Positions 1 to 16,675 of a stretch of 64,000 nt of DNA are shown piece by piece. Every line of letters starts with the position of its first letter. The first letter of the stretch is position 1. The notes below the pieces were generated by a model. That model made no database searches. It saw nothing but the letters and a program-made list of their open reading frames with translations, and was not told where the DNA came from. The stretch spans positions 186,001-250,000 of the forward strand of contig PKTR01000004.1 of the NCBI GenBank assembly GCA_002869065.1, given 5' to 3'. The translations under genes and the position numbers were made by a program. Origin of the DNA: Hyphomicrobiales bacterium. Lineage in GTDB: Bacteria > Pseudomonadota > Alphaproteobacteria > Rhizobiales > Rhodobiaceae.

Positions 1-1783
1 CGATCAGATCGAGTTTCGGCCACAGGTTCCGCACCATGTATTCCTGACCCTTGGCCTGGTTCAGGAAGTTGCCGCGGTAGGCGATGAGGACTTTCGGGTC
101 CCGGCCATCGCGCGGATAGATCGGCATCTGACCGCTTTCCAGGCCGGCGCGCAGATAGGCGGCCGTGTCAATGCCTTCGTTCTCCATCGCGTCGTAGACT
201 TCGCTGTGGTAGTAGCACCAGATCGTGGTCTGGCAGACGCGGTGCTTGGCCAGCGAGTTCGGGAACGACAGCGCGGCGACACCCGGCAGGGCGGTCGGCT
301 TCCATTGCCCGACATAGTGGTTAACGCCGCCGCCGTTCTTGCCGTCGTTGCCGGTCAGCGCCGACAGGAAATGGAACGTCCGCAGCACGACGTCGGAATA
401 GTACCAGTGGTTGGTGCCACCACCAGTGATGATCATCGACGGTGTTTCGGTCGCGTAGAGGTCTGCCAGCCGAACGACCATGTCGGCGGGCACACCGGTG
501 ATCTCGTTCACCTGCGCCGGGGTGTACGATCCCATGATCTTTTCCGAGAAGACGTCGAACACCGGTCGCACGTCGATGGCCGTGCCGTCCTTCAGCTGGA
601 CCGAGAAGGTACCCTGGAGGGCGGGCTCGACCTCGCCGAGGGCGATGTGGCCGTCCGGGAAGGTCAGGGTGTTGCGGCCGAAGAACGGCGGCTGGATTGG
701 CGGGGCCTTCTCCGGTTCCTCGCCCCAGCTGCCCTTCGTCAGCACCGGCTTCATCTGCTTCGTGCACCAGACGTAGAACTTGCCGTCCGAACCGCCTTCG
801 ACCACGTCCGCTTCGCGCAGGAACATGCCGGTGTCGTTCCGCACGAGGAACGGCATGTCGGTCTGTTCCTTGATGTTCGCGGCGTCGAACTTGCCGGCCT
901 TGATGATCTGGTGGGCCATGCCGAGGGCCAACGCCGCGTCGGTGCCGGGTTTCGGATGGATCCACAGGTCGGCCTTGATCGACGTCGAGTTGTAGTCCGG
1001 CGAGATGCTGACGACCGTTGAACCGTTGAGCGCCGCTTCGTAGATGTAGTGCGCATCGGGAATGCGGGTGGTCGCCGGATTAGCGCCCCAGACAAAGATC
1101 GTCTTGGCGTTGTACCAGTCGGCGGTCTCGCAGGTATCGCCCTGGATGCCGCAGGTCTGGGTCGTGCCGGTCGGAGGGTCGGCGTACCAGTCGAAGAAAG
1201 TGTGAGTGTGAGCGCCGATATAGTGCGCGAACCGATGGCCAGCTGAGAATGAAATCGGCGACACCGCCGGAACCGGCGTGTAGACGCTGATGCAATCGGG
1301 GGCTTCGTCGCGGATCGTGTCGACGATCTTGTCGGCGATCATCTCCAGCGCTTCGTCCCAGGTCGCGCGCCGCCACTTGCCTTCGCCACGTTCACCGGCT
1401 CGGATCAGCGGGTATTTCACCCGATGGGCACTCTACATGTAGTCCGAAGCGCACGACCCCTTGTTGCAGCCGCGCGGATTGTATTCCGGAACGCCGTCGA
1501 AGGTTGGAATATCCTTCGACTGCCCCTCGCGCAGGACGATGCCGGCCTTCGTATAGACGAAATGCGGGCAAGAACCAGTGCAGTTGAGGTGGTGGGTGCC
1601 GCGGGTCTTGGCATCCCAAGACCATTGATCGCGGTGCAGGTTTTCCCAGCCGCTATAGTCGTGCTGCACCATCGGGTCGCTCATGGCAGCGAGCGTCCTG
1701 AAAGCAAATCCGCTGCCGAAGGAGGCGCCCAAGCAGGTGGCGCTTGCACCTGTCAGGAAGGTTCTTCGCGTTGTCTTCGACAC
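1..1783 (-). pseudogene. pcrA: Perchlorate reductase alpha subunit (PcrA-like), amber-interrupted and partial
   Basis: Type II DMSO-reductase-family molybdopterin protein that would reduce perchlorate/chlorate in the periplasm. It starts at a GTG preceded by AGGAGGT, followed by a twin-arginine signal (TTRRTFLTG). The FS0 motif is intact (H-x3-C in HHLNCTGSC, then NPRGCNKGSC), and so is the molybdenum-ligand Asp (TFFDWYAD). The text resembles PcrA of Azospira/Dechloromonas through GGGTNHWYYSDV and NQAKGQ. Codon 117 is TAG (1433-1435), within DYM-stop-SAHRVKYPLIR where relatives read DYMYGPHRIKYPLIR. I translated the remaining 477 codons to the window edge and found no second stop or frameshift. 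The 3' part of the gene lies outside the window. It is a recent pseudogene, a readthrough gene, or a sequencing error; its family is clear. Confidence 0.85.
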
Positions 1784-4360: not shown

Positions 4361-5125
4361 CTATGCGTCGTACTGGCGAGGAGCGTCGATCCGTCCCGAT
4401 TGCTGCGGGTTGACGGACGACGTAACGATCTCGGAGTCGACGAGATTGGCCAACCGCCGGATATTCCGAATTGCATGGGTCTGACGGTTGAGGACGCTGA
4501 TGTAACCCTCGTCGCGCAACTGAGAAAACGCCCGGCTGACGGTCTCGCGCTTGAGGCCGAGGTAATCGGCGACATCGGAGCGCGTCATCGGCAATTCGAT
4601 CAAGCATTCGCGGTCGCAATAGATGCCCGACCGTTCGGCAATGTCGAGCAGGAAATAGATCACCCGGTCCAAGGGTTTGCGCAATACCAGTATCCGCTGC
4701 CAGAGCTCGGCGTGGTTGTTCTCCCAGATCGCCGATGCGAGCAGCACCCGGTCGATGCCGGGAAATGGCGCTTCAGCCTGCCGATGCCACTGATAAGCGA
4801 TATCGCAGATCTTGACGTCGGTCAGCGCGATCGTCGTACATTTGGGAATCTCGGCCCACGGCTGCAGTTTCAGGAATTCGCCCGGATAGACGAATTTGTG
4901 GATGAACTGCTCGCCGTTTCTCGTGTAGTCGAAAACTTTGACGATACCGGAAATGACGATCCGCAATCCGTAGGTTTCAGTGGTATTGGACGTGATGCAG
5001 TCGCCACTGCCCAGGCGACGACGCAGTACCCATCGCGATTTCGAACAGGTCTCCGTTCCATCGAAACACGCCCGGATCGGACACCGGCAGGAGCACATCC
5101 CAAGGCGAGCAAGATCAGGACTCAT
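4361..5125 (-). CDS. FNR-type transcriptional regulator (Crp/Fnr family)
   Basis: 254-residue Crp/Fnr protein. The N terminus holds an unusual cysteine cluster (CSCRCPIRAC, Cys11, 13, 15 and 20, plus Cys27), and a central Cys107 (VKICDI) matches the fourth ligand position of FNR. An oxygen-sensing Fe-S cluster is therefore plausible. A cyclic-nucleotide-like beta-roll is followed by a dimer helix and a helix-turn-helix (TRSDVADYLGLKRETVSRAF). The recognition helix RETVSR keeps Glu194, Ser197 and Arg198 of FNR but also has Arg193, at the position where CRP uses Arg180. It sits inside the island, and two matching operators lie upstream of pcrA and cld. The first ATG, after GAAAAGAAG, was taken as the start. 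Confidence 0.9.
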   Translation of the reverse strand: MSPDLARLGMCSCRCPIRACFDGTETCSKSRWVLRRRLGSGDCITSNTTETYGLRIVISGIVKVFDYTRNGEQFIHKFVYPGEFLKLQPWAEIPKCTTIALTDVKICDIAYQWHRQAEAPFPGIDRVLLASAIWENNHAELWQRILVLRKPLDRVIYFLLDIAERSGIYCDRECLIELPMTRSDVADYLGLKRETVSRAFSQLRDEGYISVLNRQTHAIRNIRRLANLVDSEIVTSSVNPQQSGRIDAPRQYDA

Positions 5126-5191: not shown

Positions 5192-5827
5192 CTATTTGGG
5201 CGTATTTCCAGCTGGTTTTCCGCCTCCATTAAGCAAATCAAGGTCAAGCCCAAGACTACTGTCCAGCGCCTTGGCTTCCTTGGGCAGTTGATGGGCGATA
5301 CCCTTGTGGCACTCGATGCAGGTCTTCTTCTGTTCGGCCGCATCTTTCATTTTTTCCGATGCGGCGCGGCGCTGCTTTTCCCAGTGCATCGAATCGTAGG
5401 CATGGCAATTCCGGCATTCGTGCGAGTCGTTCGCTTCCATTTGCGCCCAGACGCGCTTGGCCATTTCGAAGCGCATCGCTTCGAACTTCTCCGGCGTGTC
5501 GATTGTCCCGACCACCCAGTGATACAGCTCGTTGCTCGCCTGGATCTTGCGCCTGAGTTTCGGGACCCATTCCTTCGGGACGTGGCAATCGGAGCAGATC
5601 GCCCGCACACCGGAAGCGTATGAGTAGTGCGGACTGGTCATGTATTCCTGTGCCACGGTCTGCCGCATTTCATGGCACGCAATGCAGAATTCGAGCGTAT
5701 TGGTGTATTCCATGAAGGTGTTGAACCCACCCCAGAACACAACACCGCCGATACCCCCGCAAACGAATGCCAGGGATACCAGCACCGCAACAGGCCACTT
5801 CTTGATATTCTGTAAGAATGGCGGCAT
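5192..5827 (-). CDS. NapC/NirT-family tetraheme c-type cytochrome (quinol dehydrogenase)
   Basis: Membrane-anchored cytochrome that oxidises quinol and passes electrons to periplasmic carriers. From MPPFLQN it has one N-terminal transmembrane helix (WPVAVLVSLAFVCGGIGGVV) and four CXXCH haem sites: CIACH, CSDCH, CRNCH and CIECH. This is the standard NapC/NirT arrangement. The start at 5827 has GGTGGAG six bases upstream; an earlier in-frame Met at 5854 lacks a ribosome site. Perchlorate islands of other Proteobacteria carry a comparable gene (pcrQ), and here it lies between the FNR gene and the hybrid kinase. It most likely feeds the monoheme cytochrome and the Mo enzyme encoded upstream; that pairing is inferred from position. 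Confidence 0.9.
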   Translation of the reverse strand: MPPFLQNIKKWPVAVLVSLAFVCGGIGGVVFWGGFNTFMEYTNTLEFCIACHEMRQTVAQEYMTSPHYSYASGVRAICSDCHVPKEWVPKLRRKIQASNELYHWVVGTIDTPEKFEAMRFEMAKRVWAQMEANDSHECRNCHAYDSMHWEKQRRAASEKMKDAAEQKKTCIECHKGIAHQLPKEAKALDSSLGLDLDLLNGGGKPAGNTPK

Positions 5828-6189
5828 GCGACGCTCCACCAAGCGCTTTGACATACCAATTGGACGAAGATTGCTCGGATTTTCTGGACCGAGAATACGA
5901 AGTGGGAACTGTCGTGGTCGCAAAGCCTTTCGTTCGCATTGCCCACCCGATCCGAGAATCCCGTCGAGAATGAGAGGGCCGATAGATCACGTATTGCCCA
6001 GCGCCTCCCTCGCCCGTTCTGCGCCGATACCGATTTCCGCTTTTTCGGGTTCATCCGGCACGGCCAACCTTGCCGCAGCCGGACGTGACCGCTCGAATAC
6101 CGGCCAGCACCTTGTTTCGAACAGGACTGTAAAGATGAAAATTCTCGTGGTGATAACGTAGAAATCACATTTTGATAACGCGATTGCGT

Positions 6190-8203: not shown

Positions 8204-8650
8204 TCATTGGTTCATCGGCGCTTTCCGCTGCAATGTGTTGACGAAGGCCAGGACGCTTTCCTGATCTTCCGCCGATAGAACGTAGGCAAATGACGGCATC
8301 ACGACGAGCGGCGGTTCGAGGTTCTTCAAGCCGTCGTGCAGGCTCGTGGCGATGGTATCCTTGCGTGCCTCCATGAATTCCGGGTCGGTCAGGTCGGGGA
8401 TGTACTGGTAGTCCTGCCACGAGTATTTCTTGAACCCGGCGCCGTCGCCGCGAACGCCGTGGCAGTTGACGCAATGGCGAACAAAGAGCATTTGCCCCCG
8501 CTCGACCGAGACCTCGCCACCCGACGACTTGAGACGTGGCATGGCCGGTTCCCAAACGACGTCCTGTGAGGATGCACCATCGGCGACTGCCATGCCGAGC
8601 AGCAGGGCTCCTGCTGCGAAAAACGCTACATTTTGGAAAATCGGTTTCAT
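8204..8650 (-). CDS. Monoheme cytochrome c, putative electron donor to the Mo enzyme
   Basis: 148-residue periplasmic cytochrome. It has a Sec signal peptide (FAAGALLLGMAVADGASS), one haem site CVNCH in HCVNCHGVRGDGAG, and a probable axial Met in VVMPSFAYVLS. These are class I cytochrome c features. ATG 8650 overlaps the chaperone stop (ATGA), so it is the last gene of the cld-alpha-beta-delta-cytochrome cluster. Perchlorate reductase operons usually carry a multihaem PcrC, and related type II enzymes have a haem-b gamma subunit. Neither is present here, and this small cytochrome is the obvious candidate to carry electrons from the tetraheme quinol dehydrogenase. That role is inferred from gene order. 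Confidence 0.88.
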   Translation of the reverse strand: MKPIFQNVAFFAAGALLLGMAVADGASSQDVVWEPAMPRLKSSGGEVSVERGQMLFVRHCVNCHGVRGDGAGFKKYSWQDYQYIPDLTDPEFMEARKDTIATSLHDGLKNLEPPLVVMPSFAYVLSAEDQESVLAFVNTLQRKAPMNQ

Positions 8651-9372
8651 TGGTCCAAACCTTTCTGAACTGAAGCAGTGCCGCTGGTCGCAGCGTGCCG
8701 GCAGGCGCGATCGTGGCGCAGGACAGCGGCGGCGAAACCGATCAGGCCGCAATAGAAGTTGTGCGGTCTGATCATCGCAGTGACGGCCTCCATGCCGTCC
8801 AGCAAGCCCATGGCGTGGCGGTCGATGAACCCCCGCGCCTTGTCCTCGAAGAACGCGCCGAGCTTTTCCTCACCGCCAACTCTGGCCCGTTCTGCCTCGT
8901 AGGCGAGATACTGCAGGAATTCAAATTCGACACAGATGTGGTCGGGCAGGTCCTTGAAGTCGGCCGAAACGACCATTCCGCAGTCCTCGTAGAAATCGCG
9001 GACGGCAATCATTTCGCCGAGACGCTTGTCGTCGTCCGCCGACGTGAACAACGAGCTGTACGGCGGACAGAGAACTTGCGGAACGCCGCAGGCAAACATC
9101 CTGATGTAAGTCGCTTCCAACTCTTCAAAGCTGAGCTGGTTTGCGTCCTCGACGAGCTCCTTCACTCGCGACATCAGTTTTTCGACCAAGTCTTCCGGTT
9201 TTGGCAGGCGCCCTGCGACAGCGAGGATTTCCTCCAGCGCAGTGCCCCCCTGCCACCACTCCAACATGTCTCCGTCGGGATGGGCGAAGCACATCGACAG
9301 AAAATGATACATTTTCCCGTGTGCGGAGATTTCGACCTCCCCGGGCGGACGGGAAGCAACCGCAGTGTTCAT
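8647..9372 (-). CDS. TorD/DmsD-family molybdoenzyme assembly chaperone (PcrD/NarJ-like)
   Basis: 241-residue cytoplasmic chaperone of the type that binds the Tat signal of a Mo-bisPGD alpha subunit and delays export until cofactor is inserted. It is mostly helical. It contains the family signature around residues 142-156 (LPDHICVEFEFLQYLA), the usual PDH followed by an acidic/aromatic helix, and an earlier YIRMFACG...CPPYSSLF stretch matching the conserved middle helix. It starts 12 bp after the beta subunit and overlaps the cytochrome gene by 4 bp. Its client should be the alpha subunit two genes upstream, and perhaps also the pcrA product. Confidence 0.9.
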   Translation of the reverse strand: MNTAVASRPPGEVEISAHGKMYHFLSMCFAHPDGDMLEWWQGGTALEEILAVAGRLPKPEDLVEKLMSRVKELVEDANQLSFEELEATYIRMFACGVPQVLCPPYSSLFTSADDDKRLGEMIAVRDFYEDCGMVVSADFKDLPDHICVEFEFLQYLAYEAERARVGGEEKLGAFFEDKARGFIDRHAMGLLDGMEAVTAMIRPHNFYCGLIGFAAAVLRHDRACRHAATSGTASVQKGLDQ

Positions 9373-10264: not shown

Positions 10265-12811
10265 TCAAGCCTTTTTTACTTCGCATATTTCGTCGAAGTG
10301 GCCTGACACGGGGCCCCAAACATTGGGGATAAAGTAGATCTCGTGGATCGGATTGATGGCGTTCCGATTGAGAGCGTTCCAGTGTCCGTCCTGGATCTGT
10401 TCGCGCTGCCAGCCGAAATACATCAGCACCGCTCCCGGGGGGACGGCCTCGCGCAGCTTCAGCCGGGCCTTGACGTAGCCATCCTGGTTGTAGGCGATCG
10501 CCCAGTCGCCAGCCGACAGGTCGCGCTTGGCGGCGTCGAGCGGGTTCATTTCGAGGAGCGGTTCGCCGACATCGTCTAGTCGGCGGACGAGGTCTTCGGT
10601 CCGCCAGGACGAATGGACGCTCCAGCGAGTATGGCGCGCCAGATAGTAGAGCGGATATTTCTCGAAGTCCGGGTTCTGGACTTTCTTGGCCTCCTTCCAC
10701 TCCATCGACCGCCCGTACGGAGTAGCCATCTGTGGCTCTTTGTGGGTCGGCAGCTGTTCGCCAAATTCGAGGAAGCGATCCTCCTCCTTGTAGAGCTCCT
10801 GGCGTTTCGTCGCGGTCTTGAACGATTTCTTGCCCTGCATCTCCTCGGAAAAGGCGGCAATCGGATTGGACGGGCTGTTGACTCGGATGACCCGTTCCTT
10901 CTGCAGTCGCTCGAGGGTGATACCCTCGACCTGCGGACCGCCCGTCTTCAGCAGATGGTCGACCGCATCGACCGGTTCGCGGAACTTGAAGACGTCGCCC
11001 GTGCCCAGCCGCTTGCAGACCTCGTGGTAGATCTCCAAATCGGTCTTGGCCTCGTAGAGCGGTGCGACCGGTCCCTCGACGTATTGGATGTACGGGTGGG
11101 CCGGCGTCGTCGCGACATCGGCCGACAGCTCGTACCAACTGACCACCGGCAGCACGATATCGGCGAGCTGAGCGCTCGAGCTCATCTCGATTTCCGGGGC
11201 GACGATCAGTTCGACCTCCGGAAGCGACTTGTAGAGCAGTGTGTTCTGATCCGACGCCTGCCCGAGCAGGTTGCCGCCGGCAATCCAGATACAGCGGACC
11301 TGCCGCCACAGCTTCTCGCGGTTGGCCATGGTGTCGGTCGGCCCATTGACCACGTAGGCGGTGTCGAGCGGAACCGGCCGATACCGATCGTCCTTGCCGG
11401 CTTCCTTCAGCGGGAAGAAGTAGTCGGTCGGATTGAGGCGCATCTTGTACTGGCCGGCCCACGGGCTGACGCCGCCACCGTTGACGCCGACATTACCGGA
11501 CAGGATGGTCAGCGCGATCACCGCCCGCCCCATCAGATCGCCGTGGTACCAGTGGTTGATACCGGTGCCGGACCATATCGAGGCCGGGGCGTGGCTGGCA
11601 TATTCGACCGCCAGACGCTCGACGTCCGCCGCCGGCACGCCGGTGATTTCGGACACGGTCGCCGGATCGAACTCCTCGAGCTTGGCGAGAAACAGCGTGT
11701 GGGCCGTCGAGCAGGCGACTTCCTTGCCATCCGCAAGCTTCACGGTGAAGGTCCCGGTCAGTGCCGGCTTGTCGCTGAAATACTCGTCCGCGGCCGGTCC
11801 GCCCATAGCAGCGTCCCAGACCATGAAGACCTTTTCGTCGCCGCCGGCCTGAACGTCCGACTGACGCAGGTACTTCCCGTTATCGGCGCGCACGAGGAGC
11901 GGGCCACTGGTCGTCCGCCGGATCGGCTCGTCCTTGGCAAGGCCCTTCTTGACGATGACGTGGCACATGCCGAGCGCCAGGGCAGCGTCGGTGCCCGGGC
12001 GTACCCGCACCCACTCGTCGACGGCTGTCGCGGTCGGGTCGAAATAGGGCGAGATATAGACCGTCTTCGCTCCCTTGGCGCGCACGTCCATGAAGAAATG
12101 CGCATCGGGAATGCGGGTCTGCACCATGTCGCTGCCCCACATGATGACGTATTTCGAGTTCTGGACGTCCATCAGCTCGTGTTCTTCGGTCTGGACGTTC
12201 CATGTCATCGGGTGGGCGATCGGAAGGTCGCCGTACCAGTTGTAGAAGGTGCCGATGCCGAAGCCGTTGACCGCGGCAAAGCGGAAACCGGCACCCTGCT
12301 TGACAAGACCCGTCGCCGGTACCGGCGGATAGATCCATACCGCCTTGGGGCCGTATTTCTCGTTGATGCGTTTGATTTCCGATACGATGTAGTCGTACGC
12401 CTCGTCCCAGCTGATCCGTTGCCAGTGGCCCTGACCGCGAGCGCCGATGCGCTTCATCGGGTACTTGACCCGGTTCGGCCCGTAGGTCCGCTTATGGTAG
12501 GTCTGCCCCTTCATGCAGCCGCGCGGGCTGTAGTCGGCATCGGGATAGTCATAGGGCGGTTCGGCGTGATGCACGATGCCGCCGCGCACATGGACGTTCC
12601 ACCCGCACGAACCGGTGCAGTTCGGCAGGTTGACGGTGCGTACGACCTGGTCACCTTCGACCATCTTGCGATAACCGTCCTCCCAGGGACGCGGACCCTT
12701 TGCTATTTCAAGCGCCGCAAGAACCGGCTGGCGGATGGCGAACGGCGAGCCTACGAAGGCTGCTGCATAGAGGCCACCCCTGATGAAATTCCGTCGACTT
12801 GTTGTCCACAT
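10265..12811 (-). CDS. Divergent type II DMSO-reductase-family molybdopterin alpha subunit, candidate (per)chlorate or other oxyanion reductase
   Basis: 848-residue Mo-bisPGD oxidoreductase with a twin-arginine signal (TTSRRNFIRGG). The Fe-S motif is NCTGSC (Cys65, Cys69) with Cys99 in SPRGCMKGQ, followed by the type II text RVKYPMKRIGARGQGHWQRISWDEA. Relatives have His four residues before the first Cys; here that residue is Asn61. The Asp that binds Mo in NarG and PcrA (DWY) is Asn191 (FYNWYGDLP). Other pocket text is normal (RIPDAHFF, RPGTDAALALGM, GINHWYHGDL). The gene follows cld by 107 bp on the same strand and leads beta, chaperone and cytochrome. That context suggests chlorate or perchlorate as substrate, but nitrate, selenate or another oxyanion cannot be excluded. 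It is clearly different from the PcrA-like gene at 1-1783. Confidence 0.88.
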   Translation of the reverse strand: MWTTSRRNFIRGGLYAAAFVGSPFAIRQPVLAALEIAKGPRPWEDGYRKMVEGDQVVRTVNLPNCTGSCGWNVHVRGGIVHHAEPPYDYPDADYSPRGCMKGQTYHKRTYGPNRVKYPMKRIGARGQGHWQRISWDEAYDYIVSEIKRINEKYGPKAVWIYPPVPATGLVKQGAGFRFAAVNGFGIGTFYNWYGDLPIAHPMTWNVQTEEHELMDVQNSKYVIMWGSDMVQTRIPDAHFFMDVRAKGAKTVYISPYFDPTATAVDEWVRVRPGTDAALALGMCHVIVKKGLAKDEPIRRTTSGPLLVRADNGKYLRQSDVQAGGDEKVFMVWDAAMGGPAADEYFSDKPALTGTFTVKLADGKEVACSTAHTLFLAKLEEFDPATVSEITGVPAADVERLAVEYASHAPASIWSGTGINHWYHGDLMGRAVIALTILSGNVGVNGGGVSPWAGQYKMRLNPTDYFFPLKEAGKDDRYRPVPLDTAYVVNGPTDTMANREKLWRQVRCIWIAGGNLLGQASDQNTLLYKSLPEVELIVAPEIEMSSSAQLADIVLPVVSWYELSADVATTPAHPYIQYVEGPVAPLYEAKTDLEIYHEVCKRLGTGDVFKFREPVDAVDHLLKTGGPQVEGITLERLQKERVIRVNSPSNPIAAFSEEMQGKKSFKTATKRQELYKEEDRFLEFGEQLPTHKEPQMATPYGRSMEWKEAKKVQNPDFEKYPLYYLARHTRWSVHSSWRTEDLVRRLDDVGEPLLEMNPLDAAKRDLSAGDWAIAYNQDGYVKARLKLREAVPPGAVLMYFGWQREQIQDGHWNALNRNAINPIHEIYFIPNVWGPVSGHFDEICEVKKA

Positions 12812-12918: not shown

Positions 12919-13764
12919 CTATTTCGAAAGAGCCATCACCACGTCCTTCACGGACATGATCGCGCCCATCACGGTCGGCCGCCCATACCGCGTGTTGTTC
13001 AGCATCTCAGGAACTGAAAACAGTGCGATGTTAAGGTCGTTGAAGGCGACGAGATCGGCGGTCTCGAAGTAGGTGATGAAATCCGTGTCATCGATGCCGG
13101 TCGAGTGGTAGAGTTTACGCTTGACGTTGACGAGGAACGGCAGTGTCGGGAGCGTATGCTCTTCCATTCTCTTCAGCTTGTCAGCTTCCGACATGTTCCA
13201 CCATTCGGCATCCTTGGCGATGGGGATCATGAAGGCGTATTTCGGATCCGGTGCCGAATAGGCGGTTTCCTGCAGTGCTTTTAGCAGGTCGGGTGATTTC
13301 TCTTTGGTTGTGTGATTGAGCGGCTTGGTGACACCGAAAACCGAGAAGGTGACGTCGGAATTGCGACCGAGCCGGGTCGCCGCGAATTCCGTCAGAAACG
13401 CCTGGGAGTTCAGCGGCTCATAGGCATTCAGCCGCAGCATGAAGTCGGACTCGCTTTCGAAGCCGCGGGTCAGGTAGGCATCGACGAGGACCTTGTCCTT
13501 GTGCGCCATGACCAGCGCGTCGACTTCATCGGCGGCCATGGCACGCTCTGCGGCGTCCAGCATGTAATAGCTCGGCCGGACCTTGAAGGTGGTGAAGAGG
13601 CCGTAGACGCCGATGTCCTTCAAGATTTTCGCCCGTTCCACCATCATCTCTTCGGCGGAGGCCGAGCTGGAGAAGCTGGCGGATCCCACGACGGCAGCGG
13701 CGGCAATTGCGATGACGCCTACACCGGCGGACAACCAGTTCCTTCTAAAACGTTTCGGATTCAT
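12919..13764 (-). CDS. cld: Chlorite dismutase (chlorite O2-lyase)
   Basis: Periplasmic haem enzyme converting chlorite to chloride and dioxygen, the detoxifying and oxygen-yielding step of (per)chlorate respiration. The 281-residue protein has a Sec-type signal peptide ending ASA-EE. It closely follows long (clade I) Cld proteins, with VDAYLTRGFE, EWWNMSEADKLK, EEHTLPTLPFLVNVKRKLYHSTG and DTDFITYFET. The proximal haem His (in EEHTL), the distal Arg (in NVKRKL) and the Trp pair are all present; in ATG-start numbering these are His203, Arg216 and Trp188-189. ATG 13764 was preferred to GTG 13773 because the weak AGAG site is correctly spaced only for the ATG. It is first in a cluster with the alpha, beta, chaperone and cytochrome genes, behind an FNR-type operator. 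Confidence 0.95.
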   Translation of the reverse strand: MNPKRFRRNWLSAGVGVIAIAAAAVVGSASFSSSASAEEMMVERAKILKDIGVYGLFTTFKVRPSYYMLDAAERAMAADEVDALVMAHKDKVLVDAYLTRGFESESDFMLRLNAYEPLNSQAFLTEFAATRLGRNSDVTFSVFGVTKPLNHTTKEKSPDLLKALQETAYSAPDPKYAFMIPIAKDAEWWNMSEADKLKRMEEHTLPTLPFLVNVKRKLYHSTGIDDTDFITYFETADLVAFNDLNIALFSVPEMLNNTRYGRPTVMGAIMSVKDVVMALSK

Positions 13765-13840
13765 ATCTGACACTCTAGGTTGGAGGTATTGCTAGGCGGC
13801 GATGAAGTGGACGATACGGTTCGAACCGACGTCCGCCTTG

Positions 13841-14176: not shown

Positions 14177-14503
14177 ATGACCAGCAATCTTCTCAATTCG
14201 ACGACCTCGCCCACCTCCGAAGCGGACAAGTCCGCAGGTCGAAAACAGGACCCAAGGCAGACCAAGACATCCCGTCTGATCGGAATGCTGCGGCGGAAGA
14301 ATGGTACTTCGGCCGCTGGAATCGGCCGTGCGCTCGGCTGGCAACCGCATACCGTGCGGGCCGCGATCTCCGGCCTGAGAAAGGCCGGATACAGCGTCGC
14401 GACGGCAAAGGCGGCCAAGGACAGGGCTGGTCCGACCTATCGGATAATAGCCGAGCCTTCGTCGGGGAATACTGCGCACGGGTTGCCGGAGGTCGAGGAA
14501 TGA
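14177..14503 (+). CDS. DUF3489 family protein (accessory gene of a serine-recombinase module)
   Basis: 108-residue protein. The core, about residues 30-92, has the DUF3489 text KTSRLIGMLRRKNGTSAAGIGRALGW then QPHTVRAAISGL, a winged-helix-like DNA-binding fold. A CAGGAG site lies seven bases before the ATG. Its stop overlaps the next start (ATGA), so it is co-translated with the DUF2924 gene. In Alphaproteobacteria these two genes typically precede a large serine recombinase, and all three are adjacent here. A role in controlling recombination or module expression is plausible, but its function is not established. Confidence 0.85.
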   Translation: MTSNLLNSTTSPTSEADKSAGRKQDPRQTKTSRLIGMLRRKNGTSAAGIGRALGWQPHTVRAAISGLRKAGYSVATAKAAKDRAGPTYRIIAEPSSGNTAHGLPEVEE

Positions 14504-15021
14504 TGTCCCGGCGACGATCTCATTCCTCTGTACCCGTACCCTCCCCCGAGGCGTTGACGACTGCTCTTGCGGAACTCGACAGCTCCGATCGAGCGGCACT
14601 CCTTGGTCTCTGGCGGGAGATGATCGGCGCTCCGCCGCCGAAAAGCCTGTCGCTTCCCTTTCTGCGACGGGCAATTGCCTTCGAGATGCAGTGTGCTGCC
14701 CTGGATGCCCCGAAATCTCAGACGCTCAAAGATCTGAAGCGCATCGGCAATGGAAAAACGTCGAGAGCTTCAACCGGCGCGGTGCTGAAGCCGGGAGCCC
14801 GCCTTGTCCGGGAATGGAAAGGACGAACCTGGACGGTTGACGTGGTCGAGGGCGGGTATCTGATGGCTGGAGAACGTTACGTCTCGCTTTCGGCAATTGC
14901 CGGACGGATCACCGGCGCCCATTGGTCCGGACCGCGGTTCTTCGGCCTGAACCGATCGTCAGGAAACGAAGGTGGTCAGAGATCGAAGACAGCGCGTCGG
15001 TCCGGCATGAGGAGTGCCTGA
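14500..15021 (+). CDS. DUF2924 family protein (accessory gene of a serine-recombinase module)
   Basis: 173-residue basic protein. It has the DUF2924 pattern of an N-terminal helical part (LAELDSSDRAALLGLWREM...LRRAIAFEMQ) and a C-terminal beta part with LKPGARLVREWKGRTWTVDVVEGGYLMAGERYVSLSAIA and ITGAHWSGPRFFGL. Start ATG at 14500 follows GGAGG and overlaps the upstream stop by 4 bp. It ends one base before the recombinase ATG. Such proteins are almost always found next to recombinases or on mobile DNA. DNA binding is likely, but the exact role is unknown. Confidence 0.87.
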   Translation: MMSRRRSHSSVPVPSPEALTTALAELDSSDRAALLGLWREMIGAPPPKSLSLPFLRRAIAFEMQCAALDAPKSQTLKDLKRIGNGKTSRASTGAVLKPGARLVREWKGRTWTVDVVEGGYLMAGERYVSLSAIAGRITGAHWSGPRFFGLNRSSGNEGGQRSKTARRSGMRSA

Positions 15022-15022
15022 C

Positions 15023-16675
15023 ATGACCCGTCGCCTTCGCTGCGCGATCTACACTCGCAAATCCTCCGAGGAAGGGCTCAAACAGGATTTCAACTCGCTC
15101 GAGGCCCAACGGGAGGCCTGCCTCGCCTATGTCGCCAGCCAGAAAGCCGAGGGATGGATACCGGTCCAGACCCGCTATGACGACGGAGGCCTGTCAGGTG
15201 CCACATTGCAGAGACCGGCCTTGCTGAGGTTGCTAGCAGATATCGAGGCCGGCCACGTCGATCAGATCGTCGTCTACAAGATCGATCGCCTGACCCGTCC
15301 CCTGTCTGACTTTGCCAAGATCGTCGATCGTCTCGATGCGGCAGGCGCGTCGTTCGTCTCAGTCACCCAGTCGTTCAATACTGCAACCAGCATGGGACGT
15401 CTCACCCTCAACATGCTGCTCTCCTTTGCTCAGTTCGAGCGGGAGGTCACGGCGGAGCGCATTCGCGACAAGATCGCAGCCTCGAAGAAGAAGGGTCTTT
15501 GGATGGGGGGCAATGTCCCCATCGGATACCGGCCACAGGGACGAACCCTGACGATCGATGAGAAGGAAGCCGTTACGGTCCGGGCGCTCTACGACCTCTA
15601 CCTGCAACTGGGATCGGTTCGGGCCGCCAGGGAGGAAGCCGATCGCCTGGGCCTGCGAACGGCCAAACGTATCAGCGGATCGGGGCGGATCTCCGGCGAT
15701 CGGCCTTTTACCGCCGGGCACCTCTACAGCATCCTGACCAACCCGCTCTACGCAGGTCGTATCCGGCATCGGGACAGGGTCCAAGACGGCCAGCACCCGG
15801 GAATCATCAAACCGGAGCTGTGGCAGCAGGTTGAGGATCGACTGATCGAAGACTCCGCCCGCAGTCGCGGAAAGGGCAACTCCTCGGCCCATTCCCCGCT
15901 TGCCGGCAAGCTCTTCGACGAAACCGGCGATCGCCTGACACCCAGCCACACGCAAAAGAACGGCAAGCGTCTTCGTTACTACGTCTCACGGCGACTGATC
16001 ACCGATCGACGCCACAGCCACGCCGATGCCTGGCGGCTGCCGGCAGGCGAGATCGAAGCTTTCCTCTCAGGTGTTCTCCGCGACTCTCTGATAAAGCCGG
16101 CTTTCCTCACCGATCTGATCGCCAACATCACAGCTTCGGAAATCACGAACTTTCGGGACAAGCTGCACCATCTCGCCGCCGACTGCGAACGCGAACACGG
16201 AGCCGCGGAATGGGCTCCGCTCATGCGGCGTGTCGACCTTGCGCAAGGCATTGTCATAGTGCGGCTCGACCGGAAGGCGCTTACCGACCGCCTTGGCATC
16301 GACCGCAACCGCCTCGTCGCCGAGGCATGCCAACTCACCGCTCCGTTCCGCCTTCAGCGGCGCGGGATCGAAACGAAAATCATTCTCGGCGCCACAACAC
16401 CGCGGATCGATCCGATCCTCGTCAAGAACATCCTGACCGCTCGGAGGTGGTACGATGCCATCAAGGCAGGAACCACCTTCAGCAAGCTGGCCGAACGCGA
16501 GAACACCACACCCAATCGCATCCAGCAGATGATCGGTCTCGCCTTCCTCGCCCCGGACATCCTCGATCAGGTTGTGGCCGGAACCCAGCCGGTCGGCTTT
16601 ACCTCGGAATGGTTCAAGCGCCGCCAGTTGCCGGCCGACTGGAGCGACCAGCGCCAAGCCTTCGCATCCCTCTGA
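15023..16675 (+). CDS. Large serine recombinase (resolvase/integrase family)
   Basis: 550-residue site-specific recombinase. The N-terminal catalytic domain has AIYTRKSSEEG, with the nucleophilic Ser in this motif, then DDGGLSGATLQRP, KIDRLTRP and FAQFEREVTAERIRDKI. Next come a recombinase domain (LYSILTNPLYAG) and a long C-terminal region with a zinc-ribbon-like part that has lost obvious cysteine pairs. ATG 15023 has GAGGAG eight bases upstream; GTG 15014 is less well placed. It lies 232 bp from the 3' end of tRNA-Ser(GCU), at what appears to be the island edge. It probably moved the island or its own module; the att site cannot be located from one end. Confidence 0.92.
   Translation: MTRRLRCAIYTRKSSEEGLKQDFNSLEAQREACLAYVASQKAEGWIPVQTRYDDGGLSGATLQRPALLRLLADIEAGHVDQIVVYKIDRLTRPLSDFAKIVDRLDAAGASFVSVTQSFNTATSMGRLTLNMLLSFAQFEREVTAERIRDKIAASKKKGLWMGGNVPIGYRPQGRTLTIDEKEAVTVRALYDLYLQLGSVRAAREEADRLGLRTAKRISGSGRISGDRPFTAGHLYSILTNPLYAGRIRHRDRVQDGQHPGIIKPELWQQVEDRLIEDSARSRGKGNSSAHSPLAGKLFDETGDRLTPSHTQKNGKRLRYYVSRRLITDRRHSHADAWRLPAGEIEAFLSGVLRDSLIKPAFLTDLIANITASEITNFRDKLHHLAADCEREHGAAEWAPLMRRVDLAQGIVIVRLDRKALTDRLGIDRNRLVAEACQLTAPFRLQRRGIETKIILGATTPRIDPILVKNILTARRWYDAIKAGTTFSKLAERENTTPNRIQQMIGLAFLAPDILDQVVAGTQPVGFTSEWFKRRQLPADWSDQRQAFASL

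Follow-up and report, generated by a model that had tools for sequence, protein, structure and literature searches.

The alpha subunit of a type II DMSO reductase encoded in the window (the whole stretch of 64,000 nucleotides that was analysed, from a Hyphomicrobiales bacterium) carries Asn61 where NarG has His49, the histidine ligand of the iron-sulfur cluster FS0, and the same Asn recurs in all seven members found of a clade that spans Alpha- and Gammaproteobacteria. We consider it likely that this protein is a chlorate reductase exported to the periplasm by the Tat system, probably the enzyme called group 3 Clr, with its Mo bound via Asp195 and its FS0 held via three cysteines together with Asn61 or solvent. 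FS0 is the electron gateway to Mo in type II enzymes, and a natural clade with Asn, conserved together with chlorite dismutase (cld) across two bacterial classes, makes the role of the fourth FS0 ligand directly testable, where NarG mutants at His49 fail.

Family placement and gene neighbourhood

In profile searches, the best family of the alpha subunit is by far TIGR03479, type II DMSO reductase alpha, with a score of 578 bits that does not reach the curated NCBIfam cut-off of 984.75 bits; its closest solved relative among PDB chains is PcrA (4ydd), followed by NarG (phmmer). Membership of type II is in line with its operon, which includes an iron-sulfur beta subunit and a TorD/NarJ-like chaperone, and with the presence of Asp as the protein ligand of Mo, which is the basis of type II classification (PMC8301774). 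Of the type II motif for FS0, H-x3-C-x3-C-xn-C, the three cysteines are there and the His is Asn in all seven clade members, but this motif is not strictly defining, because NXR, also a type II enzyme, lacks the His. The protein does not belong with PcrA, as it lies in a separate monophyletic clade with a long stem (100/100 support) and, of the Phe-Tyr-Trp aromatic gate of PcrA, keeps Phe189 and Tyr190 while having Tyr455 instead of Trp in 7/7 sequences. Nor does it belong with NarG, in which the gate is Phe-Tyr-Glu and the FS0 position is His.

Features of the window (all on the minus strand)
Feature	Coordinates	Strand	Remarks
Chlorite dismutase (cld), directly upstream of alpha	12919..13773	-	
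Alpha (catalytic, Mo-bisMGD) subunit, 848 aa	10265..12811	-	intact ORF; Tat-type N-terminus (SRRNFIRG)
Asn61, codon AAC, at FS0 His ligand position (NarG His49)	12629..12631	-	PDB-chain and 37-sequence alignments
Cys65, FS0 ligand position	12617..12619	-	7/7 clade, 30/30 others
Cys69, FS0 ligand position	12605..12607	-	37-sequence alignment
Cys99, FS0 ligand position	12515..12517	-	37-sequence alignment
Asn191, codon AAC, in place of the 'DWY' Asp (NarG, PcrA); not at the Mo ligand site	12239..12241	-	alignment and published numbering
Asp195, codon GAC, actual Mo ligand position, retained (NarG Asp222, PcrA Asp198, NXR Asp275)	12227..12229	-	
Tyr455, third residue of the substrate gate (PcrA Trp, NarG Glu)	11447..11449	-	alignment
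Beta subunit, iron-sulfur, 4Fe-4S dicluster, 287 aa	9385..10248	-	
TorD/NarJ-family maturation chaperone (delta)	8647..9372	-	
Monoheme cytochrome c, one CxxCH	8204..8752	-	likely electron donor; real start probably an internal ATG
NapC/NirT-type tetraheme cytochrome c	5192..5923	-	likely quinol dehydrogenase
Crp/FNR-family regulator	4361..5125	-	
pcrA-like alpha, FS0 His and Asp intact	1..1780, cut by window edge	-	in-frame TAG at 1433-1435

The cld gene is directly upstream of the alpha gene in the loci of all seven clade members, and the order cld-alpha-beta-chaperone-cytochrome c is complete in six of these, the locus L048 ending in the chaperone. Most of the window's Cld sequence can be aligned with the Cld of Alicycliphilus. 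Farther along the window there follow a histidine kinase with a receiver, the NirT-type tetraheme cytochrome, the Crp/FNR regulator, a two-component pair and then a pcrABCD-type cluster.

Asn61 and the predicted FS0 cluster

Besides the window protein, the clade comprises L009 (83% identical to the window alpha, from a Hyphomicrobiales MAG), L010 (73%, gammaproteobacterial MAG), L011 (73%, alphaproteobacterial MAG), L023 (69%, on a conjugative plasmid of Alisedimentitalea scapharcae) and the pairs L030/L048 and L031/L047, which represent two genomes of one genus. These seven sequences were aligned with 30 other type II alphas, 13 of which are of NarG type. In phmmer and profile alignments alike, the residue of the PDB chains that stands opposite Asn61 is the FS0 His, both in NarG (His49 of the mature protein, index 50 when Met is counted) and in PcrA, which confirms the sequence-only reading that had placed it there in an N-x3-C-x3-C motif. 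Column 61 is Asn in 7/7 clade members and His in 30/30 of the others, a count that does not cover type II as a whole, since 16 further sampled alphas that failed the motif filter stand outside the 30; one of them, L055, is NXR-like, without the FS0 His and with an NXR-type FS0 loop (CCPND). Judging from these sequences, one normally fixed FS0 ligand, the His, is exchanged for Asn throughout the clade.

The rest of the site is conserved. The three FS0 cysteines are present in all 37 sequences, and the clade retains Asn64, Lys101, His420 and Asp195 as well, while Lys101, Trp71 and much of the FS0 loop are invariant within it. Fifty columns are kept in at least 29 of the 30 other alphas and are also invariant in the clade; the two groups differ in only four of them (61, 205, 242 and 367). 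The ratio dN/dS is about 0.09 for the window gene versus L010 and 0.24 versus L011, several other pairs being saturated. Purifying selection and invariance in the clade rule out gene decay, and the same view expressed from the sequence alone was sound, given also the conserved operon and the retention of the other pocket residues. At each of positions 200, 211, 367 and 507 of the alpha subunit, all clade members share a His or Cys that none of the 30 other alphas has in that column, the alignment at 367 being uncertain. Many of the sampled genomes encode alphas, L055 among them, that are about 1,170-1,200 aa long and match the type II profile only from its middle onwards.

How would FS0 be held in these proteins? 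The His has been described as 'apparently fully conserved' in subfamily II (PMC8840923, 2021), and the departures on record are few: NXR has a 3Cys/1Asp FS0 with Cys at the His position, the likely alternatives for NXRs and NARs being, in its authors' view, 3Cys/1Asp and 3Cys/1His according to lineage (PMC8387239), and two haloarchaeal NarG sequences are mentioned, with no further detail, that do not have the usual pattern (PMC8301774). We found no report of an Asn-type FS0 in the literature. Asn is normal throughout the clade, probably the group 3 chlorate reductases, which is part of what the earlier reading had named as counting against it (a large known clade in which Asn is normal and characterised); no characterisation of FS0 was found for the clade. 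In E. coli NarG, assembly of FS0 is a precondition for insertion of the Mo cofactor, and the variant with Ser at the FS0 His (3ir6, the Ser being visible in our PDB-chain alignment) lacks both FS0 and the Mo cofactor (PMC10609526); replacement of the same His by Cys abolishes activity (PMC8301774). Because of these mutants, Asn in a clade that is under selection and linked to an operon is unexpected. By analogy with them Asn61 might hold no cluster at all, which is a point against our main reading.

An alternative is that FS0 has been lost, or persists as a labile [3Fe-4S] cluster, and that electrons reach Mo more slowly or along a different path, a situation that we regard as unlikely. Asn is a poor ligand of Fe, which would favour such a loss. 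The NarG protein with Ser at the same position and no FS0 speaks for it too, but loss of FS0 in NarG goes together with lost insertion of the Mo cofactor (PMC10609526), and in a protein without the cluster one would not expect Lys101, Trp71, the three cysteines and a large part of the loop to be invariant. These retained residues argue that an FS0 cluster is present in the alpha subunit. Its fourth ligand could also be some other residue, for instance Cys367 or Cys507, both invariant in the clade and absent from the same column in the other 30 alphas; we deem this very unlikely, given that both are distant from the FS0 loop in sequence and that phmmer pairs Cys367 with a Cys of NarG, so that it may not be new. 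As to the preferred arrangement, the chances appear even that the whole chlorate reductase clade uses a third natural type of FS0, either 3Cys/1Asn or 3Cys plus solvent. AlphaFold2, run on five sequences, gave a mean pLDDT of 33.5, too low for the geometry of FS0 to be read from the model.

The ligand of molybdenum

Asn191, in the context FYNWYGD, had likewise been taken for a substituted ligand, this time of Mo. The residue is real (7/7 clade members have Asn at both 61 and 191) and does take the place of the 'DWY' Asp that NarG, PcrA and haloarchaeal enzymes carry, but it does not occupy the Mo ligand site. The motif F-Y-D-W-Y-x-D of type II alphas contains two Asp, of which the second is the ligand. 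Counting residues along the PDB chain places Asp222 of mature NarG at index 223, the second Asp of the motif. In PcrA (precursor numbering) the gate residues Phe192 and Tyr193 go with the Mo ligand Asp198, and in the Haloferax enzyme Phe243 and Tyr244 go with Asp249 (PMC8301774); the ligand thus lies five residues past the gate Tyr in both proteins and is therefore the second Asp. The Mo ligand of Kuenenia NXR, Asp275 (PMC8387239), is by the same counting the Asp of WHGD, at index 275. Hence, the true ligand sits four residues after the 'DWY' Asp and corresponds to Asp195 in the alpha subunit, a column that is Asp in 37/37 sequences. Column 191 is instead variable, with Asn in the clade and Asp (20), Ser (6) or Ala (4) in the others, ClrA being among the ten with Ser or Ala.

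The claim about Mo failed because the first Asp of the motif had been mistaken for the ligand. Loss of the Mo ligand is ruled out by the published residue numbering, and the altered coordination sphere that had been proposed is not borne out: the ligand is a conventional one and gives no grounds for proposing a novel coordination of Mo. That the FS0 His and the Mo Asp have both been lost deserves next to no credence, even if Asn191 does replace an Asp, considering the invariant later Asp and the Ser or Ala already present at position 191 in other type II alphas.

Substrate, related enzymes and movement of the cassette

To judge from the strict linkage with cld, chlorite is formed close by. In metagenomes, the reductases that most often accompany cld are Pcr and 'group 3 Clr', the latter having a conserved link to cld, and one MAG encodes both reductases (PMC9751292). 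Group 3 Clr is described as a type II DMSO reductase that is neither Pcr nor one of the older Clr groups, tied to cld and present in one genome with Pcr; the alpha subunit is alike in these respects, including the cld association in 7/7 loci, in a comparison made by description only. Matched in this way by context and description, not by sequence, the protein is probably what Barnum & Coates (2020, doi 10.1111/1758-2229.12869) called 'group 3' Clr. We sought the enzyme of Rhodoplanes roseus in genomes of the order, of a large family of it (guessed to be Xanthobacteraceae) and of one genus of that family; no sequence under this species name was reached, and the genus gave only PcrA-type genes. 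This organism, according to what Barnum and Coates reportedly stated in 2020, grows on chlorate, not perchlorate, with a group 3 Clr, and some organisms are said to carry both reductases.

The third gate residue bears on the substrate, too. The Tyr455 gate agrees with a chlorate enzyme without being proof of it. The PcrA variant W489E maintains growth on chlorate and has a raised Km for perchlorate (PMC8301774). A main substrate other than chlorate (perchlorate, nitrate, bromate, iodate or another), with chlorate reduced incidentally, would fit the promiscuity of type II enzymes (Km table in PMC8301774), and chlorate activity of the clade proteins is itself a prediction. We nevertheless judge it improbable. 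Strict linkage to Cld implies chlorite as a product, the window and L010 each have a perchlorate reductase cluster besides, and the third gate residue is neither the Trp of PcrA nor the Glu of NarG.

For a chlorate reductase, electrons would flow from quinol to the NirT-type tetraheme protein, then to the small cytochrome c, the beta subunit, FS0 and finally Mo, where chlorate would be reduced to chlorite; the adjacent Cld would convert chlorite to chloride and O2. Two MGD and Asp195 would coordinate Mo in the manner usual for type II enzymes, and the predicted FS0 would be held by Cys65, Cys69 and Cys99, its fourth ligand being Asn61 or a solvent molecule. Fixed in the clade, such a departure from 3Cys/1His probably shifts the redox potential of the cluster or the lability of its fourth Fe. 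If the whole clade does use it, 3Cys/1Asn (or 3Cys plus solvent) would join the known 3Cys/1His and 3Cys/1Asp types; this would suggest that evolution tunes the FS0 ligand to substrate and electron donor, and that the cofactor loss of the NarG His49 mutant is not a general rule.

Each of the known systems shares part of these features. PcrAB of Azospira (4ydd) has the Mo-Asp, the FS0 cysteines, the Phe/Tyr gate and the cld neighbourhood, but differs in its FS0 His, its Trp as third gate and its own clade, PcrA-type alphas being about 36% identical; moreover, pcrC of the window encodes a C554-type cytochrome, as opposed to the monoheme cytochrome of the Asn-type cassette. NarG (1q16) has the CTGSC loop, a Trp near FS0, the Mo-Asp and the catalytic His in common with the alpha subunit, whereas it has FS0 His49, the Glu gate, a much longer protein and the NarI membrane anchor. 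NxrA of Kuenenia (7b04) also departs from 3Cys/1His, and its Mo ligand Asp275 aligns with Asp195, but it uses Asp71 as FS0 ligand with Cys at the His position, where the alpha subunit has Asn alongside the three usual Cys. ClrABDC of Ideonella and Alicycliphilus is expected to catalyse the same reaction, next to cld and with the same order of alpha, beta, chaperone and last subunit; yet it is about 29% identical, has the FS0 His and Ser at 191, and its last gene is annotated as a gamma subunit instead of a monoheme cytochrome c.

The pcrABCD-type cluster crosses the window edge, with pcrB, C and D beyond it, and its pcrA-like gene is, apart from the TAG, open over 948 codons. The TAG suggests either a recent loss of Pcr, with the Asn-type reductase intact, or an assembly error. 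In L010, pcrABCD and a NirT gene lie right behind the cassette. The genomes G398 (that of L009) and G628 have the cassette of cld and Asn-type enzyme and gave no match to a separate PcrA, a combination that speaks for our main reading. Behind the cassette of L009 stands a single pcrD-like chaperone gene (L009:14878-15552), perhaps the remnant of a lost pcr cluster.

The Asn clade was not found in two other genomes of the window's genus, and L023 lies on a plasmid, which together point to horizontal movement of the cassette. On that plasmid (NZ_CP123588.1, typed conjugative) the cassette is beside a molybdenum cofactor gene (glp), possibly forming a transferable module for chlorate respiration. 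On one flank of the chlorine-oxyanion genes, the window encodes a large serine recombinase, accompanied by a DUF3489 gene (14177-16675, plus strand); on the other, beyond pcrD, there is a protein resembling ParB or a DNA methylase with a partner gene, as read by eye (L012:2607-5203, plus strand). These genes may constitute a mobile island. Elsewhere in the L010 genome there is a further type II-like alpha, L084 (G1377:C89:45342-48053), which is 36% identical to the PcrA of that genome.
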